Assembly (NCBI RefSeq): GCF_001431425.1
Contig: NZ_LDJG01000015.1
Coordinates: 62,001-126,000, forward strand
Direction of reading: 5' to 3'
DNA from: Stenotrophomonas nitritireducens
Lineage (GTDB): Bacteria; Pseudomonadota; Gammaproteobacteria; Xanthomonadales; Xanthomonadaceae
Length of the DNA: 64,000 nt
This document shows positions 27,696 to 37,944 of the stretch, piece after piece. The notes beneath the pieces were generated by a model. It was not told the origin of the DNA, did not search any database, and worked only from the letters and a program-made list of their open reading frames with translations. A program made the translations under genes and the position numbers. Every line of letters begins with the position of its first letter. Positions within the stretch are counted from its first letter, which is position 1.

Positions 27696-28811
27696 ATGAA
27701 TACCCAAGTCCACGCCGCATCCAACGCGCCCAACCTGGGCATGCAGGTCACCACCTTCGAAAACCCGATGGGCATCGATGGCTTCGAGTTCGTCGAGTTC
27801 GCCGCGCCGGCAGGGCAGGCCGCCCAGCTGCACGACTACTTCCGGAACATGGGGTTCACTGCCGTGCTCCGCCACCGGCAGCGTGCTATTACCGTCTACC
27901 GTCAAGGCGGCGTCAACTTCCTCGTGAACGAGGAGCCGGACTCCTTCGCCGCCGACTTCGCCGCCAAGCACGGCCCCTGCGCCTGCGGTTTCGCCATCCG
28001 TTTCCAGAAGCCGGCCGCCGACGTGCTCGCTGCCGCGCTGGGCAATGGCGCCGAGGAAGTGAGCCTGCTGGCCGACACCCGCGCGGTGCCGGCGCCGGTG
28101 ATCAAGGGCATCGGCGACTGCATGCTGTACCTGGTGGACCGCTACGGCGAGGCCGGCAGCATCTACGACGCCGACTACGTGCCGGTAGACGGCGCCGAGC
28201 AGGACCCGAAGGGCTTCGGCCTTACCTTCATCGACCACCTGACCCACAACCTGTACCTGGGCAACATGCAGCAGTGGTCGGACTACTACGAGCGCCTGTT
28301 CAACTTCCGCGAGATCCGCTACTTCGACATCAAGGGCGCCAAGACCGGCCTGGTGTCCAAGGCGATGACCGCGCCGGACGGCATCGTGCGCATTCCGCTC
28401 AACGAGTCCTCCGACCCGAAGAGCCAGATCAACGAATACCTGGACGCGTACAAGGGCGAGGGCATCCAGCATATCGCCTGCTTCACCGACAACATCTACG
28501 ACACCGTCGAGGCGATGCGCGAACATGGCATCGAGTTCCTGGACACCCCGGATACCTACTTCGACGTGGTCGACCTGCGCATCCCGGACAATGGCGAGGA
28601 CGTGCCGCGCCTGCGCCGGAACAAGATCCTGATCGACGCCGACCCGGAGACCAAGCAGCGCAAGCTGCTGCAGATCTTCACCCAGAACTGCATCGGCCCG
28701 ATCTTCTTCGAGATCATCCAGCGCAAGGGCAACGAGGGTTTCGGCGAAGGCAACTTCCAGGCGCTGTTCGAGAGCATCGAGCGCGACCAGATCAAGCGCG
28801 GCGTGCTGTAA
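27696..28811 (+). CDS. hppD: 4-hydroxyphenylpyruvate dioxygenase
   Basis: A 371-residue non-haem iron dioxygenase converting 4-hydroxyphenylpyruvate to homogentisate in tyrosine degradation. The iron triad is expected at His in I-D-H-L-T-H-N-L-Y, His in I-Q-H-I-A-C-F-T-D, and Glu in the C-terminal P-I-F-F-E-I-I-Q-R. G-F-G-E-G-N-F-Q-A-L-F-E-S-I-E-R-D-Q at the end is the hallmark gate helix. Two VOC-fold halves are present and the length is normal for the family. GGAGGC precedes the ATG. It is first of a likely operon with a small ORF and hmgA; its promoter contains the probable MarR operator. Confidence 0.95.
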   Translation: MNTQVHAASNAPNLGMQVTTFENPMGIDGFEFVEFAAPAGQAAQLHDYFRNMGFTAVLRHRQRAITVYRQGGVNFLVNEEPDSFAADFAAKHGPCACGFAIRFQKPAADVLAAALGNGAEEVSLLADTRAVPAPVIKGIGDCMLYLVDRYGEAGSIYDADYVPVDGAEQDPKGFGLTFIDHLTHNLYLGNMQQWSDYYERLFNFREIRYFDIKGAKTGLVSKAMTAPDGIVRIPLNESSDPKSQINEYLDAYKGEGIQHIACFTDNIYDTVEAMREHGIEFLDTPDTYFDVVDLRIPDNGEDVPRLRRNKILIDADPETKQRKLLQIFTQNCIGPIFFEIIQRKGNEGFGEGNFQALFESIERDQIKRGVL

Positions 28812-28842
28812 CGTTGGCGGTCCACTCCCCGAGGAACACGCG

Positions 28843-29307
28843 ATGCTGACCGAACTGATCACCCTGTTGACCTGCGATGGCCTGGAAGGCGACGACCTGG
28901 CCGACTGCGTGGCCAGGATCGAGGCATCGCCGGCGGACCCGGAACTGGAGTGGATCGAGGGCGACGGCCCGGCGGCGTTCATGCAGTTCGCGATCCTCGC
29001 CGAGCTGGGCGATTTCGTCGCCATCGGCGACAAGGTCGACGAACTGCACGAAGAGATCAGCGAGCAGTTCGCCGACCCGCTGCCGGCGTTTCCGGGACAG
29101 GAAATGCCGGCGGCGGAGTACTTCCAGTGGCTGGACGGGCAGCTGGCCGCCCGGCCTACGCCCTACGAAATCCTGCTGTGGGGCAATCACTTCGATGACA
29201 ACCTCTATGCCTTCATCGTCCGCCGCAAGGACACCGCACGCGTCCTCGACCTTGCCGACGGACTGGGGCTGCTGGCCGAGCGCGCGACCCGGCGCCAGCT
29301 GACCTGA
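28843..29307 (+). CDS. Small acidic protein between hppD and hmgA
   Basis: A 154-residue very acidic soluble protein without signal peptide or membrane segment. It is rich in Asp/Glu/Leu (for example [11 protein letters not shown] and [12 protein letters not shown]) and has [17 protein letters not shown] as its most distinctive block. It may belong to DUF6630, but I am not sure. It lies 31 bases after hppD and 40 bases before hmgA on the same strand, which places it in the tyrosine-degradation operon; no catalytic role is evident. Confidence 0.75.
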
Positions 29308-29347
29308 AACCGCCTGCCCGTCCGGGCACATCCACGCGAGCGCAGCC

Positions 29348-30643
29348 ATGTCCCAGAGCAACAACGCCTATCAATCCGGTTTCGGCAACGAGTTCGCCAC
29401 CGAGGCGGTGCCCGGCACCCTGCCGGTGGGACGCAATTCGCCGCAGCGCGTGGCCCACGGGCTGTATGCCGAGCAGTTGACCGGCACCGCTTTCACCGCG
29501 CCGCGCGGCAGCAACCGCCGCAGCTGGCTGTACCGTATCCGCCCGGCGGCGATGCATGGCAGGTTCACGCCGTTCGAGCAGCCGCGCCTGCACGGCGACT
29601 TCTGCCATGGCGCGGTGTCGCCGGACCAACTGCGCTGGAATCCGCTGCCGCTGCCGGAAGCGCCCACCGATTTCGTCGAGGGGCTGTACACCATGGGCGG
29701 CAACGGCTCCCCCGAGGCGCACGCCGGCGCCGGCATCCACCTGTACGCCGCCAACGCCGACATGCGTGGCCGGTACTTCTATGACGCCGACGCCGAACTG
29801 CTGATCGTGCCGCAGCTCGGCCGGCTGCGCCTGCGCACCGAGCTGGGCGTGATCGAGATCGAGCCGCAGCAGATCGCGGTGATCCCGCGCGGCGTGCGCT
29901 TCGCGGTGGACCTGCCGGACGGGCAGGCGCGCGGCTATGTCTGCGAGAACTTCGGCGCGCTGCTGAAGCTGCCCGACCTCGGCCCGATCGGCAGCAACGG
30001 CCTGGCCAACCCGCGCGATTTCGAAACGCCGGTGGCCGCGTACGAGAACGTGGAGGGCGATTTCGAACTGGTCGCCAAGTTCCAGGGCCGGCTGTGGCGC
30101 GCGGACATCGGCCACAGTCCGCTGGACGTGGTCGGCTGGCACGGCAACTACGCGCCGTACCGCTACGACCTGCGCCGCTTCAATACCATCGGCTCGATCA
30201 GCCACGATCACCCCGATCCGTCGATCTTCCTGGTGCTGCATTCGGCCAGCGACACGCCCGGCACCAGCAACCTGGACTTCGTGATCTTCCCGCCGCGCTG
30301 GCTGGTGGCGCAGGACACGTTCCGCCCGCCGTGGTTCCACCGCAACATCGCCAGCGAGTTCATGGGCCTGGTCCACGGCGCCTACGACGCCAAGGCCGAG
30401 GGCTTCGTCCCCGGCGGCTGCTCGATCCACAACTGCATGACCGGCCACGGCCCGGACGCGGCCACCTTCGACAAGGCCTCCAGCGCCGACCTGTCGCGCC
30501 CGGACGTCATCGTCGACACCATGGCCTTCATGTTCGAGACCCGTGGCGTGATCCGCCCGACCGAACAGGCCATGGCCGCCGGGCACCGCCAACGCGACTA
30601 CCAGGCCTGCTGGAGCGGGCTCGCGAAGCACTTCCAGGGTTGA
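29348..30643 (+). CDS. hmgA: Homogentisate 1,2-dioxygenase
   Basis: A 431-residue iron dioxygenase opening homogentisate to maleylacetoacetate. It starts [13 protein letters not shown], the family N-terminus. The active-site region has [16 protein letters not shown] (iron ligands His and Glu) followed by [13 protein letters not shown] (third ligand His). The family-typical C-terminal block [12 protein letters not shown] follows. Length is normal. It completes the hppD-ORF-hmgA unit; maleylacetoacetate isomerase and fumarylacetoacetase genes are not in the window. A diverged copy of its last approximately 100 bases occurs at 38.1 kb. Confidence 0.95.
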
Positions 30644-30981: not shown

Positions 30982-33858
30982 ATGAAGACAAGCAAATTGC
31001 GTGATGCGATTCTGGTTGCATTGGTCGGTTCCATGGGTCTTGCCGGCACGGCAATGGCGCAGGATGCGGCCAAGTCCGAGTCCGACGCTGCCACCAATCT
31101 CGATGCCATCACTGTCACCGGCAGCCGCATCAAGAGCCAGACCTTCACCGCATCCTCGCCGGTCACGGAAATCACCGCCGAGGAGTTCACGCAGGTTGGC
31201 GCCACCAAGGTCGAGGATCTGGTCAACCAGTTCCCGCAGGTCGATCTGAGCTTCGACAACTTCGCCAACAACGGTTCCTACGGTCATGCGACCATTTCCA
31301 TGCGTGGCCTCGGCCCCGAGCGCACGCTGACCCTCGTCAACGGCCGTCGTCTTCCGGCCAGCCGCAATGAGATCGCCGACCCGTCGATCATTCCGGTGGC
31401 AGCGATCAAGCGGGTGGACATCCTTTCCGGTGGCGCTTCGGCCGTGTATGGCGCCGACGCCGTGGCCGGCGTGGTCAATTTCGTGCTGGACGACAAGTTC
31501 GAGGGCGTGAGCCTCAACCTCGGCTATTCGGCTTTCCAGCACAACAACGACGACAAGACGGTCCAGCAGCTCAACAAGGACAGGGGCTTTCCCTACCCGA
31601 CCGGCAATTCGGGCCTGGATGGCACGAGTCATAGTGCCGAGCTGGTGCTGGGCAGCAGCTTTGCCGACAACAAGGGTCACGCCATGGGCTGGCTGACCTG
31701 GCGTGAAAACGAAGCGCTTTACCAGGCCGAGCGTGACTACTCCGCCTGCTCGGTATCGGCCACCTCAGCGGCCTGCGGCGGTTCCGGCACGGCCAACCCG
31801 GGCCGTTTCACGGTCAATCAATATGCAAACGGCGGCGTGGTCAATTGGCCGACCGGAAAGAACGCCAACTACGTCTGGAACGGCAAGAACTACCAGAACG
31901 GCACTTACCTGTACAACTACGCGCCGATCAACTTCTACCAGCGTCCGGACAATCGCGTCACCGCAGGCTTCATGGCCAGCTATGACATCAACGACTACGC
32001 CACGCCGTATGTCGAGGCCATGTTCCTTGAGCGCCGTTCCAGCACGCAGATCGCCGAATCCGGCGCTTTCGGCGTGCCGATCGTCGTGGACTGCAACAAC
32101 CCGCTGATCGGCACCATGTGCGCCGATGCCGGCGTCGCCACCAGCCAGGCGCAGGTCACCCTGTGGAAGCGCAACGTGGAAGGCGGTCCGCGCATCTCCT
32201 CCAGTGATGACAGCACCTACCGCATCACGGCGGGCATGAGGGGTGGTTTGTTCGGCTCGTCCTGGACCTATGACGCTTCGGCGACCTTCGGCCGGACCAA
32301 AACCATCGATATCGGCAAGAACGACTTCCTCAACACCAATATCGCCGCTGCCGCGCTGGGTTGTACCGATCCTGTTTACGGCACCTTCCCGGGTTGCTCG
32401 CTGTACGACATCTGGACCGACAAGATCTCCAAGGAAGCGGCCGATGCGATGGCCGGCACCAGCTTCAGCATCTACAAGACCAGCTACAGTTCGCTGTCGG
32501 CCGTTGCCGACGGTTTCCTCGGCTGGGGTTTCCCGACCGCAGGCGGCGAGGAAATCGGTCTGGCGGTAGGTGCCGAGCGCCGCCATTACACCTACACCAG
32601 CGACTACGATGGCGATTCGGCCGCGGGCAACTTCGCCGGCGCCGGTGCCGCCAGCCTGCCGGTGGACGCGGGCAATACCGTGAACGACTTCTTCTTCGAA
32701 GCGGCGTTGCCGGTCTACGTGGGTGACGGCCTGTTCAACCGCTTCGACGTTTCGCTGGGTTATCGCTATTCGGATGACGAGACCTCGGGCAACTACGACA
32801 CCTACAAGCTCGGCCTGAGCAGCGCGCTGTGGGACAGCAAGCTGCTGCTGCGCGGCGGCTACAACCGTGCCGTGCGCGCGCCGAGCCTGAACGACCTGTA
32901 CTACTCGCAGCGCATCGCCCTGGATGGCGAAGAGGATCTGTGCGCCGGACCGAAGCCGGCCTACACCGCGGCGCAATGCGAGCGCGCCGGCGTGCCGACC
33001 TCGGCCTACGGCAACGTGCCGGTCAATCCTGCCGAGCAGTATTTCGGCCTGGTCGGCGGCAATCCCAACCTGGCGCCGGAAATTGCCGACACCTACACCG
33101 TTGGCTTCGCGGTCGAACCCCTCGAGAATCTGAACATTTCCCTGGATTGGTACGACATCAAGATCGAAGGGGCGATCGCCGGCATCGGCCACGAAACCAT
33201 CCAGCGGCTCTGCCTGGAGAATGGCCTGTATTGCGACCGGATCAAGCGCGACGCGCGTGCGGGCAACTACGACCTGTGGATCGGCCAGGCGTCGGATCCG
33301 AAGTCCGGCTACGTCATCAACCTGCCCGACAACATCGGCGTCTACAAGCGTTCGGGCCTCGACCTGGCCACGAGCTATTCGTTCCAGTTCGGCCCCGGCC
33401 GCTTGAGCGCAAGCCTGGTGGCCAACTACGTCCTGAAGCAGTTCACCCAGTCGCTTGCTTCCGAACCGAGCACCGCCTTCGAGTGCAAGGGGCTGATCAA
33501 CAACGACTGCGGAAACTCGCCGAAGTGGCGTCATATCGCCTCGGCGAACTATGCCTGGGACCGCTACACCGTGGGCATGCGCTGGCGCCATATCGGCGGC
33601 ACCAGCTACAAGGACGTGAACGGCAACAAGCTGAGCAGCAACATCTGGCTGGGTAGCGGTGTTTCCACCTACAACTACCTCGATCTGAATGCCAGCATGA
33701 GCATCGGCCCGGCATTGATCTCCCTGGGCGTGAACAACGTGTTCGACAAGGAGCCGCCGTTCGTGGGTTCCGCCAGCTTCGCGGCCAATGCCAACGCCGT
33801 GGGTGGCTACGATCAGGCCGGCCGTTACATCTTCGGCAGCTTCAGCCTGAAGTTCTGA
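30982..33858 (+). CDS. TonB-dependent outer-membrane receptor
   Basis: A 958-residue receptor. A signal peptide (residues 1-27, ending A-M-A-Q) leads to a TonB-box-like D-A-I-T-V-T-G-S-R-I segment, then a plug domain with I-S-M-R-G-L-G-P-E-R-T-L-T-L-V-N-G-R-R and D-I-L-S-G-G-A-S-A-V-Y-G-A-D-A-V-A-G-V-V-N. A 22-strand barrel follows, ending in aromatic Phe. This version with R-x-L-x-L-V-N-G-R-R-x-P is the group common in xanthomonads and caulobacters and often linked to carbohydrate or peptide uptake; the substrate is unknown. Conserved blocks include L-L-R-G-G-Y-N-R-A-V-R-A-P-S-L-N-D-L-Y. It ends before a strong terminator and converges with a cluster holding two hydroxylases. Confidence 0.93.
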   Translation: MKTSKLRDAILVALVGSMGLAGTAMAQDAAKSESDAATNLDAITVTGSRIKSQTFTASSPVTEITAEEFTQVGATKVEDLVNQFPQVDLSFDNFANNGSYGHATISMRGLGPERTLTLVNGRRLPASRNEIADPSIIPVAAIKRVDILSGGASAVYGADAVAGVVNFVLDDKFEGVSLNLGYSAFQHNNDDKTVQQLNKDRGFPYPTGNSGLDGTSHSAELVLGSSFADNKGHAMGWLTWRENEALYQAERDYSACSVSATSAACGGSGTANPGRFTVNQYANGGVVNWPTGKNANYVWNGKNYQNGTYLYNYAPINFYQRPDNRVTAGFMASYDINDYATPYVEAMFLERRSSTQIAESGAFGVPIVVDCNNPLIGTMCADAGVATSQAQVTLWKRNVEGGPRISSSDDSTYRITAGMRGGLFGSSWTYDASATFGRTKTIDIGKNDFLNTNIAAAALGCTDPVYGTFPGCSLYDIWTDKISKEAADAMAGTSFSIYKTSYSSLSAVADGFLGWGFPTAGGEEIGLAVGAERRHYTYTSDYDGDSAAGNFAGAGAASLPVDAGNTVNDFFFEAALPVYVGDGLFNRFDVSLGYRYSDDETSGNYDTYKLGLSSALWDSKLLLRGGYNRAVRAPSLNDLYYSQRIALDGEEDLCAGPKPAYTAAQCERAGVPTSAYGNVPVNPAEQYFGLVGGNPNLAPEIADTYTVGFAVEPLENLNISLDWYDIKIEGAIAGIGHETIQRLCLENGLYCDRIKRDARAGNYDLWIGQASDPKSGYVINLPDNIGVYKRSGLDLATSYSFQFGPGRLSASLVANYVLKQFTQSLASEPSTAFECKGLINNDCGNSPKWRHIASANYAWDRYTVGMRWRHIGGTSYKDVNGNKLSSNIWLGSGVSTYNYLDLNASMSIGPALISLGVNNVFDKEPPFVGSASFAANANAVGGYDQAGRYIFGSFSLKF

Positions 33859-33886
33859 TCGAAGCGTTACGTTTCATGGCAAGAAG

Positions 33887-33918
33887 AAGGCGGCGGGCTT
33901 GGGCCCGCCGCCTTTTTT
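33887..33918 (+). terminator. Strong intrinsic terminator after the TonB receptor gene
   Basis: A perfect 10-base stem GGCGGCGGGC / GCCCGCCGCC with a TTGG loop is followed by six T. It starts about 30 bases after the stop codon. Confidence 0.92.
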
Positions 33919-33958
33919 GGCCCCTTCCGTGGCGACCGTCCGTGCGGTCGCGGCTGTT

Positions 33959-34318
33959 TCAGCCTTCGTCACCGTCCTTCGCCACCGGCTTTGCATCCAG
34001 TTCGCGGGTGAAATCCTTTGCCGCTTTCTGGCGCGCTTCCCATTGTTCCGGTGTGAGGCAAATCCGCTTCTTCATGCGGCTGCCGGTGATGTCTTCGTAC
34101 TCGCAGATCCTGACGGGCTTGCCCTGCTTGGCCGGGGGGGCGGCTTCTTGGGCTTCGGGAGAATTTGCGGGAGCGCTTGTCTGCGCCGCTACCTGGCCGA
34201 TGGGCAGCATGCCGAGGGCCGCCGTTGCGAGCATCAGGCGAGCAGTGCGCCACGGCTGCGGTGTGTCAGTTGCAGGCGCGGACGATGGGCGGGCGGGACG
34301 AATGGAATCGACGTGCAT
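33959..34318 (-). CDS. Small exported protein with a conserved-looking Cys pair
   Basis: A 119-residue protein. A basic, Pro-rich N-terminus leads to a hydrophobic signal segment (L-M-L-A-T-A-A-L-G-M-L-P-I-G) ending A-A-Q, so it is probably periplasmic. The mature part is a low-complexity Ala/Pro/Gln stretch followed by a compact domain with I-C-E-Y-E-D-I-T-G-S-R-M-K-K-R-I-C, two Cys 14 residues apart that could form a disulfide, then a charged helix. Similar C...T-G-S-R...C proteins are widespread and unnamed in related bacteria (family knowledge, not checked). The start is uncertain: an ATG 23 codons upstream also exists. It faces the TonB receptor across its terminator. Confidence 0.65.
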   Translation of the reverse strand: MHVDSIRPARPSSAPATDTPQPWRTARLMLATAALGMLPIGQVAAQTSAPANSPEAQEAAPPAKQGKPVRICEYEDITGSRMKKRICLTPEQWEARQKAAKDFTRELDAKPVAKDGDEG

Positions 34319-34466
34319 GGCGGCATCTTCGGCTGGGTAAGGTAGGCCCGCCATGGGTTTGGCGGGGGGAACGGCATGACACCTCATGGTGCGCGAAAGC
34401 CATGCGCTGCGCCAGAACTCCAGGGCCGCCGCGGCTCCATGGGCTCGGGGCCTGCCTGGTAGGGCG

Positions 34467-36155
34467 TCAGTTCTTCGGCTGCACGTCGAAGGCGATGGTC
34501 AGCCGCGACTCGGGGTCGTCGAACGGCACGGTGCCGTGCCACATGTAGGAAGGGAACAGGGCCAGATGCCCGGGCCTGGGCTGGATGAGGCGACGAGGCG
34601 GCAGGTCAAGTCCCAGGCTTTCCAGCGGCTGCCCGAACTGTATCCAGCCTGCGCATGACGTGGCGTCCGACGCCAGTACGCTGCCGGGCAGGGCGACATA
34701 GAAGGCGGAGCTTGCCCAGCCCTTGGTATGGATGTGGTTGGAATGATGCCCCGATGAGCGGAGTTTCACCGACCAGGAGCCGGCGAAGCGGATCTCGCGC
34801 CGTCTGCGCGAGAGGAACGGGTGCGTCGGGTCGACCGGCATTGTCGCCAGCCAGGTTTCGACAGCGTTGCTCAGGGCGGCCTGGGCAGCATCGATTACCG
34901 TGTCGCTGCGTCCGAACAGCTGGCCTGCCGTCTGCGTGCCGCCGCGCACGCTCTGGTTCACCGGCTCGCGGGTGGCACCGTGCATGGCATCGAGGGTTGC
35001 GGCCAGCGCATGCAGGAACGCGGGGAGATCGTTGAAACCGGGTGGGGGGGCGATCTCGACATAGCCGACCAGCTTTTCGTAATCGAACAACCAATGCTCG
35101 CGCTCGTCGCCGGCCAGCCGCCATGCCGTACCCAGGTGGCTCCAGCCTTCCTGGTTGTGCGGGTCGAGCCGGACCGCCTTTTCCGCGCACCTGGCAGCCA
35201 GGTCGAAGCGTTCCGTGCGGAATGCGTGCCGTGCGTGGGCGTTGAGGAATTCCGGCAGCACGCCCAATTCGCCGCGTGCCGCCGCGGCGTACAGCGGCGC
35301 GGCCTGCTCATGCTGTTGCAGCGTGTCCAGCGCATCAGCGGCGAACCACTCCAGCATGGCGTTTCCGGGTTCGCGCCGGCGCAGCGGGGTAAGGAGCGCG
35401 ATGGCCTCATCGGCGTTCTTGGTCGCCACCAGCATGCGCACGAAAGCCAGCTGCAGCGCCCGGTTGTCCGGCTGTGCCCGTGCCGCGGCGCGAAGCGCAT
35501 CCAGCGGGTCTTCGCCCGGCGCCAGTGTCGCGCCGTTTTCCCAGAGCAGGTTCCCCAGGGTTTCGTGCGCAGGCGCATGGCCCGGATGCCGGGCGACCAG
35601 CCTGCGTGCACCGGCCAGTGCTTCGGCGGTGCGGCCCGCATCGGCCAGCACGCCGTTGATGGCGTCCTGCAGCTCGGGCGCATCGACGCCACGCCGGCGC
35701 AGCAATTCCTCTGCCTGCCGGTAGGCGGACAAGGCTTCGTCGATGCGCCCCAGCAAGCGCAGTACGGCCCCGAGGTCGACCCATGCGGAGGCCTGCTCCG
35801 GCGACAGGGCGAGCGCTTTGCGCAACACCGGTTCGGCTGCTTCCAGTCGATCCTGTGCACGCAGCGCCTTGCCGTGGCGGGCGAGGGAAATTCCGTAATT
35901 GCGCGATACCGTGGCATTGCCCGGCAGCAGGGCCAGGGCGCGTTCGAACGCTGCATTCGCCTCCGCCTGGCGGCCATCGTCCGCCAGGCACATGCCCAGC
36001 AACTGCCATGCGTCGACAGCCTGCGCTGCCTGCTGGGTCAGCGCTTCGGCGATGGACAGCGCCTGCGCGCGCTGTCCGGACTGCAGCAGGCCCTGCGCCT
36101 GCTTGAAGCGCTGGGCCTGCGCTGGGTTCAACGGCTGGCCGTGCGGTGCGGGCAT
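34467..36155 (-). CDS. TPR-repeat 2-oxoglutarate/Fe(II) oxygenase
   Basis: A 562-residue cytosolic protein. Residues 10-350 are tetratricopeptide repeats (for example A-W-Q-L-L-G-M-C-L-A-D-D-G-R and A-W-V-D-L-G-A-V-L-R-L-L-G-R). The last 190 residues are a putative 2OG-Fe(II) oxygenase domain: H-H-S-N-H-I-H-T-K-G-W-A-S-S-A-F-Y-V supplies the first iron ligands, and G-H-L-A-L-F-P-S-Y-M-W-H-G-T followed by R-L-T-I-A-F-D supplies the last His and the 2-oxoglutarate-binding Arg. It probably hydroxylates a protein bound by the TPR, which is inference. It lies 6 bases downstream of the next small gene, in one operon with a second TPR hydroxylase. Confidence 0.87.
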   Translation of the reverse strand: MPAPHGQPLNPAQAQRFKQAQGLLQSGQRAQALSIAEALTQQAAQAVDAWQLLGMCLADDGRQAEANAAFERALALLPGNATVSRNYGISLARHGKALRAQDRLEAAEPVLRKALALSPEQASAWVDLGAVLRLLGRIDEALSAYRQAEELLRRRGVDAPELQDAINGVLADAGRTAEALAGARRLVARHPGHAPAHETLGNLLWENGATLAPGEDPLDALRAAARAQPDNRALQLAFVRMLVATKNADEAIALLTPLRRREPGNAMLEWFAADALDTLQQHEQAAPLYAAAARGELGVLPEFLNAHARHAFRTERFDLAARCAEKAVRLDPHNQEGWSHLGTAWRLAGDEREHWLFDYEKLVGYVEIAPPPGFNDLPAFLHALAATLDAMHGATREPVNQSVRGGTQTAGQLFGRSDTVIDAAQAALSNAVETWLATMPVDPTHPFLSRRRREIRFAGSWSVKLRSSGHHSNHIHTKGWASSAFYVALPGSVLASDATSCAGWIQFGQPLESLGLDLPPRRLIQPRPGHLALFPSYMWHGTVPFDDPESRLTIAFDVQPKN

Positions 36156-36161
36156 GGATGC

Positions 36162-36635
36162 TCAGCGCATGCGGCGCACGCCAAGGCGCACGCCTGCGGG
36201 TGTTACCAGCACATAGCTGCCCAACAGCCCCTTGCGCAGTTGTACGTTGTCGCCGGCCTGTACATGGCCGCTGCTGCGCGATTCGGCCTGTGTCCAGACC
36301 TGCCCGTTCTCGAGCGTGAAACTGCGTTGCCCGGCGCGGCCGTACTCCACCTTGACCACCCGGCTTTCGATCCGTTCCGGGGCGGCCTGCTCATGCGTCT
36401 GTCCCGGGTTGAGCAGGGGCTCATGGGGTTTGGCCAAGCCGAAATCCGCCTGCGCCTTTTCCGCCGCCGCCGCATGCACGGCAGGCGGTGGCGGGAACGC
36501 CTTGTCGTAGCAGGCCAGCCGCGCGGCCGGCTCGGCCACGCTGGCGCAGGCATGAAGGAGGGGTTGCGCCGCCAACGTCGGGGCGAGCAGGTACAGGAGC
36601 GAGGGCAACAGGCGGCGCATCAACATGGGCGGCAT
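36162..36635 (-). CDS. Small exported protein of unknown function
   Basis: A 157-residue protein with a signal peptide (M-L-M-R-R-L-L-P-S-L-L-Y-L-L-A-P-T-L-A-A-Q), so it is probably periplasmic. A-C-A-S-V-A-E-P-A-A-R-L-A-C-Y-D-K-A-F follows, a two-Cys helical motif common in small exported proteins of unknown role. The C-terminal half is a likely beta barrel (V-W-T-Q-A-E-S-R-S-S-G-H-V-Q-A-G-D-N-V-Q-L). Three start codons are possible (36635, 36626, 36620); AGGAT precedes the first. It sits between the two hydroxylase genes, 34 bases from the upstream one. Confidence 0.7.
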   Translation of the reverse strand: MPPMLMRRLLPSLLYLLAPTLAAQPLLHACASVAEPAARLACYDKAFPPPPAVHAAAAEKAQADFGLAKPHEPLLNPGQTHEQAAPERIESRVVKVEYGRAGQRSFTLENGQVWTQAESRSSGHVQAGDNVQLRKGLLGSYVLVTPAGVRLGVRRMR

Positions 36636-36669
36636 CGATCCTATGGAAGGGGCAGCATAACCGGCCGGT

Positions 36670-37944
36670 TCAGGCTCCGTCGTCCGCCATGCGCCAGCTG
36701 CGCATCGCGCCAGCCAGTGCCGTCGCCATTTCGCGCTCGGCCACAGACAGCAGCGGGTTCCATACGTCGAACATCAGGATCACGCGCAGTGCGCTGCCGT
36801 CGTTGCGCGCTTCGTGTTCGAGCGTATCGTCGAACACCCAGCACTTGCCTTCCCGCCACTGTCGCCAGTCGTAGCCGACGCGGTAGTGGCAGCCGTCCGG
36901 CACCACCAGCGGAAGGTGCGCGACCAGCCGCGCATTGGTCTCGCCTGTATGCGGTGGAATGTGCGCGCCGGGCGCCAGCGCGGAGAACATGGCGTTCGGG
37001 CAGAGACCGGCTATTTCCACTGAATCCACCAAGGCCAGCGCTTCGGCGGTGCGCGGGCACTGCGCCAGATGTTCGTGTACCGGTTCGCCATGCGCATAGA
37101 GGTGGAAGCCGCTCCAGCTATGCGAATGGTTGAGCTTGTCCCACTGGTTGACCGGCGTGCCCGGTGGATACTGGATGTACGGCACGAATTCGGATCCGCG
37201 GCGCACGATCATCTCCTGCAACTCGGCCTTGATCGCATCGGTGCGCGATTCGAGCTCGCGCATCCAGGGGAACAGGGCATCGTCGTAAAAGGTGATCGCC
37301 GGCAGGCGGGGTACCTGCAACTGGTTGCAGACGGAGTGGTAGGGCCTGCTTTTTCCGGCGAGCAGGGAGATCGCTTCATCCCAGCGGCTGCCCAGCGCGG
37401 CATTCACGGCCGCGCGTTGCGCGCCGGTCTGGTGATGCAGGAATGCGGCGATCTCCTCGGTGTCCCGCGCGACGGCATCGCGCGCGTGCTGCAGGCGCGC
37501 TTGCAGCGCGCGCGGCCATTGCTCCTGCGGCGGCGCCACCTTCATTACGTCGCGGAACACCGCTGCGGCGGCCCGGGAGCGTTTCTGTCGTTCAAGGAAT
37601 TCACCACGGGCCAGCAGGCCCGGCAGGAAATACGGGTCGATATCGAGCGCTGCGATGATGGCAGCCCATTCCTGTTCCGTACGCCCCGCCTCCCGGTGCA
37701 CACGGGCAATGCTCAACGGAATCATCGGGTCGCCAGGTGCGCCCGCGCGCGCCTGCTCAAGCAGGTCGAGCGCGGCGGCCGAATCGTTGCGCTGGAACGC
37801 ATGGACCCCGAGGCTGAAGAGGGCTTGCACATGGCCGGGATCGCGTGCGCGGACCTGCGCCCACAGGCGCTCCGCTTCCTGCCAGTGTCCGGCTGTCGCC
37901 GCCGCACCCGCCGCATTCACCAGTCCGGCCAACAGGTCGTTCAT
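36670..37944 (-). CDS. TPR-linked aspartyl/asparaginyl beta-hydroxylase
   Basis: A 424-residue cytosolic protein. Residues 1-200 are TPR-like helices. The C-terminal domain is of the aspartyl/asparaginyl beta-hydroxylase family: H-I-P-P-H-T-G-E-T-N-A-R-L (first iron His and 2-oxoglutarate contact), P-D-G-C-H-Y-R-V-G, W-R-E-G-K-C-W-V-F-D-D-T-L-E-H-E-A-R-N (second His) and R-V-I-L-M-F-D-V-W-N-P. All signature residues are present. It should hydroxylate Asp/Asn side chains of a protein or peptide. The ATG (M-N-D-L-L) was preferred to a GTG eight codons upstream at 37968; neither has a strong ribosome site. It is the first gene of the leftward operon. Confidence 0.88.
   Translation of the reverse strand: MNDLLAGLVNAAGAAATAGHWQEAERLWAQVRARDPGHVQALFSLGVHAFQRNDSAAALDLLEQARAGAPGDPMIPLSIARVHREAGRTEQEWAAIIAALDIDPYFLPGLLARGEFLERQKRSRAAAAVFRDVMKVAPPQEQWPRALQARLQHARDAVARDTEEIAAFLHHQTGAQRAAVNAALGSRWDEAISLLAGKSRPYHSVCNQLQVPRLPAITFYDDALFPWMRELESRTDAIKAELQEMIVRRGSEFVPYIQYPPGTPVNQWDKLNHSHSWSGFHLYAHGEPVHEHLAQCPRTAEALALVDSVEIAGLCPNAMFSALAPGAHIPPHTGETNARLVAHLPLVVPDGCHYRVGYDWRQWREGKCWVFDDTLEHEARNDGSALRVILMFDVWNPLLSVAEREMATALAGAMRSWRMADDGA

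Follow-up and report, generated by a model that had tools for sequence, protein, structure and literature searches.

TonB-dependent receptor genes adjoin a changeable set of TPR-linked enzymes that may modify an exported protein

A receptor gene facing two TPR hydroxylase genes

The subject of this analysis is a stretch of 64,000 nucleotides from Stenotrophomonas nitritireducens (contig NZ_LDJG01000015.1, positions 62,001 to 126,000 of the forward strand; hereafter the window), in which the gene of a TonB-dependent receptor (TBDR) faces a group of genes encoding, among others, two hydroxylases fused to tetratricopeptide repeats (TPRs). TBDR genes, including a family related to the window receptor, adjoin a changeable set of enzymes far more often than expected by chance; several of these enzymes join a TPR solenoid to a catalytic domain, and a VasI-like exported protein often accompanies them. 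All five genes that a preliminary description of the stretch had named were found at their positions, as judged from the open reading frames and a Pfam scan. The features of this cassette are the following (aa, amino acids; 2OG, 2-oxoglutarate):

30982..33858, plus strand: TBDR, 958 aa, with Plug and barrel domains above the Pfam cut-offs
32158..32160, plus strand: codon of receptor residue T393; Tyr at the aligned position in sulfotransferase-linked relatives
33886..33918, between the convergent genes: hairpin with a T run, resembling an intrinsic terminator (from folding and direct reading of the sequence)
33959..34318, minus strand: small Cys-pair protein, probably exported, 119 aa from the ATG at 34318
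34467..36155, minus strand: TPR and 2OG-Fe(II) oxygenase (PF13759), 562 aa, catalytic domain at about 34485-34778
36162..36635, minus strand: VasI-like exported protein, 157 aa, encoded between the two hydroxylase genes
36670..37944, minus strand: TPR and Asp/Asn beta-hydroxylase domain (PF05118; TPR-AspH), 424 aa, catalytic domain at about 36754-37239

The TBDR gene is convergent with the minus-strand group, which reads TPR-AspH, VasI-like protein, TPR-PF13759 oxygenase and Cys-pair protein and is likely an operon because its intergenic gaps measure 34, 6 and 148 bases (the open frame of the Cys-pair protein extends to 34387). Between the convergent genes, the hairpin at 33886-33915 comprises 13 pairs, the outer three of which use the T run at 33913-33918 (folding energy -27.5 kcal/mol, z -4.3); it is absent from the list returned by a terminator consensus scan. 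No TPR-sulfotransferase lies beside the receptor in the window cassette. The window's genome holds 48 receptor-barrel matches, one PF05118 match and one PF13759 match.

Both receptor domains score well above their cut-offs (Plug, 76.6 bits for a cut-off of 23.9; barrel, 97.3 for 27), and the VTVTGSRI segment resembles a TonB box. TPR-AspH matches PF05118 with 145.3 bits (cut-off 22.6) and TPR_16 with 35.4 (cut-off 32.7). Its hydroxylase domain aligns with human AspH (E 5e-24) through PHTG-TN-RL--HL and FDD--EHE, and thus carries the HxG...H two-His catalytic sequence (HTG...EHE in the alignment to human AspH). The human enzyme, likewise a TPR protein with a PF05118 oxygenase and the two-His sequence, acts on EGF-like domains in the lumen of the endoplasmic reticulum, whereas the window enzyme is bacterial, is encoded beside a TBDR and has no signal peptide recognized by a crude scan; no EGF-like domain was found by Pfam among the eight window proteins scanned. 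The other hydroxylase matches PF13759 with 74.7 bits (cut-off 27) and several TPR models above their cut-offs, and its TPRs match those of O-GlcNAc transferase. In an alignment of the window sequence with 63 further rows, some of them nearly identical, H474, H476, H540 and D557 are present in all rows and R551 in 98%; we read this as a His that takes the position of the acidic residue in the usual HxD...H set. A structure model of this oxygenase, built from five sequences, gives a TPR solenoid at about residues 10-330 with good confidence and a catalytic domain with low confidence. Because the crude scan finds no signal peptide on either TPR hydroxylase, both are taken as cytoplasmic. Two related oxygenases (L040 and L041), 50 and 54% identical to the window's, come from regions devoid of a TBDR, and that of L040 adjoins genes read as a formate-dehydrogenase-like operon.

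Two other identities were considered for these proteins and found no support. Against the NCBIfam equivalog models of lipid hydroxylases, TPR-AspH scores 102.2 bits for OlsC (cut-off 450) and 60 bits for LpxO (cut-off 500). As for anti-phage defence, four window proteins and one TPR-sulfotransferase gave no PADLOC match at E <= 0.001.

Linkage of receptors with TPR enzymes

PF13759 is present in 72 of 299 genomes of the phylum. Outside the window's genome, we fetched 37 of the 40 PF13759 matches with an open frame of at least 400 aa (of the three left out, two scored like the short type and one fell below the cut-off) along with 20 shorter ones, and termed strong the 29 of the 37 long matches that reached at least 130 bits on a profile built from close relatives. 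Wider receptor profiles were used, the initial one having missed the receptor types of two loci (L056 and L076). At the 29 strong loci, a TBDR gene lies within 5 kb in 22 cases, within 1.5 kb in 17 and within 0.25 kb in 14, for 2.48 expected from the Plug counts within 1.5 kb (P 9e-12) and 1.68 within 0.25 kb; when only the first strong locus of each genome is retained, a TBDR is found within 1.5 kb in 13 of 23 cases versus 1.95 expected. The P values of the linkage are too small, because the genomes are related. A TBDR occurs in the region of one of the eight weak long loci, and within 5 kb of none of the 20 short PF13759 genes; one of these (L115) lies some 7 kb from a receptor fragment. Seven genomes carry both gene types: there, a TBDR lies within 5 kb of five of the eight strong long genes versus none of the seven short ones (Fisher 0.026).

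The TPR-sulfotransferase loci behave similarly. Among 20 such loci, hand-picked from 12 genomes of five groups and hence not a random sample, ten have a TBDR in the region and nine have one within 1.5 kb (1.16 expected); counting the first locus per genome gives 4 of 12 versus 0.61 expected (P 1.7e-3). The preliminary description would have been refuted by a co-occurrence confined to close relatives; instead, TPR-oxygenase and TBDR are linked in Gammaproteobacteria, Alphaproteobacteria and other classes of the phylum.

Within the family, searches of 119 genomes returned the oxygenase in 20 (E <= 1e-20; 11 at 47% identity or more), the receptor in 18 (E <= 1e-90; 14 at 46% or more) and AspH in 31 (E <= 1e-40; 11 at 50% or more). 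Nine genomes share the receptor and a close oxygenase, and nine the receptor and a close AspH (hypergeometric 1e-8 each, uncorrected for kinship); in all eight shared genomes other than the window's, oxygenase and receptor belong to one locus (L035-L039, L042-L044). At least one cassette enzyme accompanies 11 of the 14 close receptor orthologs. The receptor is the constant element and the enzymes are changeable, as illustrated by two genomes (G017 and G064) that have the receptor, AspH and two sulfotransferases and no oxygenase. A TBDR was also found in the region of all 11 TPR-AspH loci fetched irrespective of the oxygenase, these being taken from the top 12 by score of the 23 matches outside the nine shared loci; eight AspH-bearing genomes contain 14 to 69 Plug matches each. 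The loci nearest to the window's among named records are those of four Luteimonas records and one Pseudoxanthomonas metagenome-assembled genome.

The partners that recur at linked loci are TPR-AspH, TPR-PF13759, two kinds of TPR-sulfotransferase (PF13469) and an S-adenosylmethionine methyltransferase (PF08241), to which are added a 240-aa 2OG oxygenase (PF13661/PF13640), a Trp halogenase (PF04820), the VasI-like protein and small Cys proteins. The cassette is therefore modular, in that a sulfotransferase, a methyltransferase, the other 2OG oxygenase or a Trp halogenase joins or replaces the hydroxylases; TPR-oxygenase and Trp halogenase occur together at four loci (L056, L067, L076 and L089). 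The receptor-enzyme pair adjoins a gene set read as exbB/exbD/tonB at three loci (L075, L081 and L085) and part of that set at two more (L078 and L086). Oxygenase matches were found in 22 of 72,556 plasmid records, and in six of these the match spans 80% of the query or more. On a Catenovulum plasmid the oxygenase gene adjoins a TBDR gene, together with GH32, amylosucrase and Trp halogenase genes, and on Sphingobium and Croceicoccus plasmids it does so near genes for short-chain dehydrogenases/reductases and pyrroloquinoline quinone enzymes. The receptors of these plasmid records differ in type from that of the window.

In a comparison of 100 receptors, drawn from cassette loci and the window's genome only, the window receptor had its 31 closest matches (73 to 27% identity) exclusively at cassette loci, and these came ahead of the other receptors of its own genome. 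Likewise, one or more cassette enzymes lie within 8 kb of 37 of 42 aligned receptor relatives, a share that is biased upward as an enzyme match led to the retrieval of most of these loci; four of the others have no cassette gene and one has a Cys-type gene only. The distances between oxygenases correlate with those between receptors (r 0.54, uncorrected for kinship). Four Cys pairs (461/472, 654/666, 744/751 and 835/843) are conserved in the relatives; together with a YN-AP-N stretch, they are common to the relatives and rare among 52 added sequences of the window's genome (receptors and a few large frames chosen by size). These pairs were considered as disulfide substrates of the AspH type and rejected, the pairs being kept in receptors without enzymes.

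A receptor tyrosine and the TPR-sulfotransferases

Using the 42 aligned receptors, the association of each column with each enzyme was compared with that of control residues. The best receptor column reached 1.4e-4 for the methyltransferase, narrowly better than the controls (2.5e-4), and 2.5e-5 for the TPR-sulfotransferase (controls, 2.3e-4). The latter value belongs to the position aligned to T393, directly preceding the (K/R)RNVEGGPR stretch, where a Tyr is present in 8 of the 14 receptors that have a TPR-sulfotransferase no farther than 8 kb away and in none of the 28 without; it is the best of the 20 residues over all tested columns (p 2.5e-5, uncorrected for kinship). A Ser aligned to window T429 (the W428/T429 column) was also noticed in 13 of the 14 sulfotransferase-linked receptors and 7 of the 28 others.

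The Tyr prediction was recorded before new data were collected. A receptor match at E <= 1e-170 exists in 53 of 395 family genomes, and the best 30 matches were retrieved with 1.5-kb flanks, 23 of them in new genomes. Among the new receptors, the Tyr is present in 10 of 10 whose 1.5-kb flanks contain a sulfotransferase frame and in 1 of 13 whose short flanks contain none; that single receptor (L217) is a sister of two that have both. On a tree built excluding the stretch around T393, the Tyr accompanies the sulfotransferase in 18 of 18 cases in the clade of 41 rows around the window and occurs in none of the 10 receptors of that clade known to be without. The independent pairs on this tree comprised three that changed in the same direction, none in the opposite direction and four without difference (four, none and five, respectively, when rows with flanks only are counted as being without the enzyme). 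Tyrosine sulfation sites often have acidic residues upstream, and many of the Tyr aligned to T393 are preceded by such residues (TDDEFTVY). From these alignments, we infer that the Tyr at this position is a candidate sulfation site in the sulfotransferase-bearing relatives.

What the enzymes may modify

The combination of a TPR solenoid and a catalytic domain is known from protein-modifying enzymes, O-GlcNAc transferase and AspH among them, and a protein substrate shared by both window hydroxylases would fit this layout and the AspH-type catalytic sequence. We put at slightly below an even chance the reading in which the cytoplasmic TPR enzymes modify an exported protein of the cassette, most likely the receptor. 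In the cytoplasm, the TPR arms would take hold of an exported protein from the same locus while it is newly made and unfolded, the catalytic domains would hydroxylate its side chains (elsewhere sulfate, methylate or halogenate them) and the modified protein would then be exported, this order being proposed because the enzymes are predicted to be cytoplasmic and yet are tied to an exported protein. The receptor would be the most likely substrate and the VasI-like protein a second substrate or a partner, and the modified residues might tune the binding of a ligand or metal, or mask the receptor. We rank the receptor first for three reasons: it is present at linked loci by definition, its pairing with the enzymes occurs across different catabolic settings, and one of its residues tracks one enzyme. 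More doubtful, though still worth stating, is the generalization that a modular proteobacterial system decorates outer-membrane receptors, and perhaps the VasI-like companion, before export by means of TPR-guided hydroxylases, sulfotransferases, methyltransferases and halogenases (sulfation of the Tyr aligned to T393 would be one example), the lineage-specific residues serving to bind a ligand or metal or to mask the receptor from phages and bacteriocins. If true, this would represent an unrecognized layer of protein modification on the outer-membrane receptors that take up iron, vitamins and sugars, and would give a common purpose to receptor-adjacent TPR oxygenases, TPR sulfotransferases and Trp halogenases; the Tyr that tracks the sulfotransferase is one concrete residue to examine.

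Several observations weigh against modification of the receptor or against the linkage itself. The control provided by the short PF13759 genes is weak: at least two of the genomes concerned (G184 and G279) have no TBDR, and four more belong to a group (f52) whose four counted genomes have 0 or 1. At seven of the 29 strong TPR-oxygenase loci the region contains no TBDR, and four of the 20 TPR-sulfotransferase loci come from genomes with 0 or 1 TBDR. In the family, the close oxygenases of L040 and L041 belong to genomes without a receptor ortholog and have no TBDR in the region; conversely, no cassette enzyme was found in the fetched stretch for the close receptor orthologs of G104, G077 and G107 (in the last of which the receptor is in two pieces at contig starts) or for the distant receptors of G059, G086 and G092 (in G086, only a Cys-type match stands beside the receptor). 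No receptor column tracks AspH (best 3.9e-4 versus 4.2e-5 for the controls), the PF13759 oxygenase (2.4e-4 versus 1.3e-4) or the other 2OG oxygenase (1.6e-5 versus 5.3e-6) better than control residues do. As for the Tyr, its independent co-changes with the sulfotransferase are too few for significance (sign test 0.25 or 0.125); moreover, Phe or Gln occupies the T393 position in six sulfotransferase-linked receptors outside the 41-row clade. Of the two targets proposed in the preliminary description, the receptor thus gains indirect support as regards the TPR-sulfotransferase, through its Tyr, and none as regards the hydroxylases, for which no tracking site emerged; the Cys-pair protein is weakened, as profiles miss it at many linked loci.

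The protein encoded between the hydroxylase genes had been described as exported, and the crude scan indeed calls a signal peptide on it, as on the TBDR; a partial match to VasI (PF11319) can now be added, at 21.8 bits for a cut-off of 26.5 over residues 30-62. The Cys-pair protein, for which export had also been claimed, is not called by the scan, and its probable export is judged from a hydrophobic stretch. The likeness to VasI is confined to some 33 residues at the N terminus, which include the RLxCYD motif, and the score lies below the cut-offs, reaching 15.6 of 124.2 bits with the NCBIfam VasI model. Because this match is partial, the VasI-like protein is no proven part of a type VI secretion system, an assignment that found no support (below both Pfam and NCBIfam cut-offs, with 33 positions matched only); no other type VI family matched the window proteins scanned with Pfam. 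The protein has a C-x11-C-Y-D sequence near its mature N terminus and an ENGQVW segment, and its structure model, built from four sequences, is of low confidence. As for the Cys-pair protein, it matches no Pfam family and has one weak further match in the window's genome. A pattern C-x(n)-[TA]G[ST]R[hydrophobic]-x(n)-C recurs in the Cys-pair proteins of the window and of three other loci (L038, L043 and L044); its similarity to VTGSRI, found close to the N terminus of the receptor, may be coincidence or mimicry.

That the enzymes modify one of these small proteins, VasI-like or Cys-pair, which would act as a ligand, a metal or haem carrier or a partner of the receptor in a manner somewhat reminiscent of methanobactin, a peptide that a TonB-dependent transporter recovers, seems to us unlikely, though it has points in its favour. 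Indeed, the VasI-like gene sits between both hydroxylase genes in the window and is restricted to the cassette: it was found in 7 of 60 family genomes (E <= 1e-6), in all seven at a position inside the cassette, and in seven of the eight genomes of that set with a close receptor ortholog, and distant members recur at eight loci (L068, L073, L074, L080, L084, L088, L090 and L093). Against this, the profiles missed it at many of the other linked loci, its RLxCYD part is common to VasI (in the partial match), the Cys-pair proteins seem, by eye, to share no invariant Asp or Asn, and no small exported frame was found beside L058, L059, L060, L062, L081 or L171 by the crude scan, which also missed the Cys-pair protein of the window. 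Methanobactin operons, in the passages of PMC3621798 that describe them, pair a TonB-dependent transporter with modifying enzymes, including a sulfotransferase in some families, and a peptide precursor. The likeness to the window thus lies in the transporter gene accompanied by modifying enzymes and the difference in the TPRs of the window enzymes; no methanobactin family (precursor, MbnB/MbnC-type) matched any of the eight window proteins scanned with Pfam. Also in favour of a small substrate, a table of PMC10040529 (Pontixanthobacter) lists a lasso-peptide B2 protein, an aspartyl beta-hydroxylase and sulfotransferases under neighbouring cluster numbers, so that a peptide may be the substrate of similar enzymes; the table concerns clusters co-occurring with salt tolerance, and the passages seen do not treat these gene types as a set.

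It is less probable still that the enzymes act on a compound imported by the receptor, or build a small molecule that the receptor recaptures. In some genomes the receptor-linked enzymes do lie in catabolic neighbourhoods, a transporter of the major facilitator superfamily (MFS) stands beside the Trp-halogenase type (annotated in Catenovulum, with a recurrent cluster read as MFS in L060, L067 and L089), and lipid hydroxylases also belong to PF05118 (against the OlsC model, 102 bits for a cut-off of 450). However, one enzyme type can stand beside receptors whose catabolic settings are unrelated, TPR fusions are typical of protein-modifying enzymes, and the receptor residue that tracks one cassette enzyme argues against a small-molecule substrate. 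Trp halogenase genes are found beside TBDRs, which resembles the window in that a receptor stands beside a modifying enzyme and differs from it in the receptor type (cluster 25). Trp halogenase is flavin-dependent, unlike the window's oxygenases.

We regard as improbable that receptor and enzymes merely travel together as a mobile block while sharing no substrate, or that the enzymes act on an unlinked protein or lipid. Such a block would agree with the patchy distribution of the cassette, the oxygenase being absent from three sampled congeners and the receptor ortholog from at least 20 congeners (its best match, 74%, is in another genus), and with a site kept without the cassette in the window's own genome: L124 (G000:C11:58000-70000) has the cassette-flanking genes of relatives in order, with another receptor and no cassette, and adjoins a gene read as Hsp33. 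The cassette block was thus probably moved or acquired, as far as can be judged from these sequences. Nevertheless, hitch-hiking alone would leave unexplained the repeated pairing with three classes of TPR enzymes in distant groups. In a congener (L094, G071:C111), a weak oxygenase, a methyltransferase and a TBDR lie beside an Hsp33-like gene.

In the literature searched (titles, starts of abstracts and passages, most subscription journals and preprints lying outside), we found no description of the cassette combination. Upstream of the receptor gene, on the same strand, the window carries hydroxyphenylpyruvate and homogentisate dioxygenase genes (27696-30643), which bear no sign of cassette membership. 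Elsewhere, a Cys-rich exported peptide with GEGKCG repeats (L095:10603-10971), which we take to be bufferin-like, adjoins a TPR-oxygenase and sulfotransferase pair. Finally, the window's genome contains a separate receptor-enzyme pair (L137, G000:C7:177029-180812), in which a second receptor, with a frame of 1080 aa, has a TPR-sulfotransferase directly downstream.

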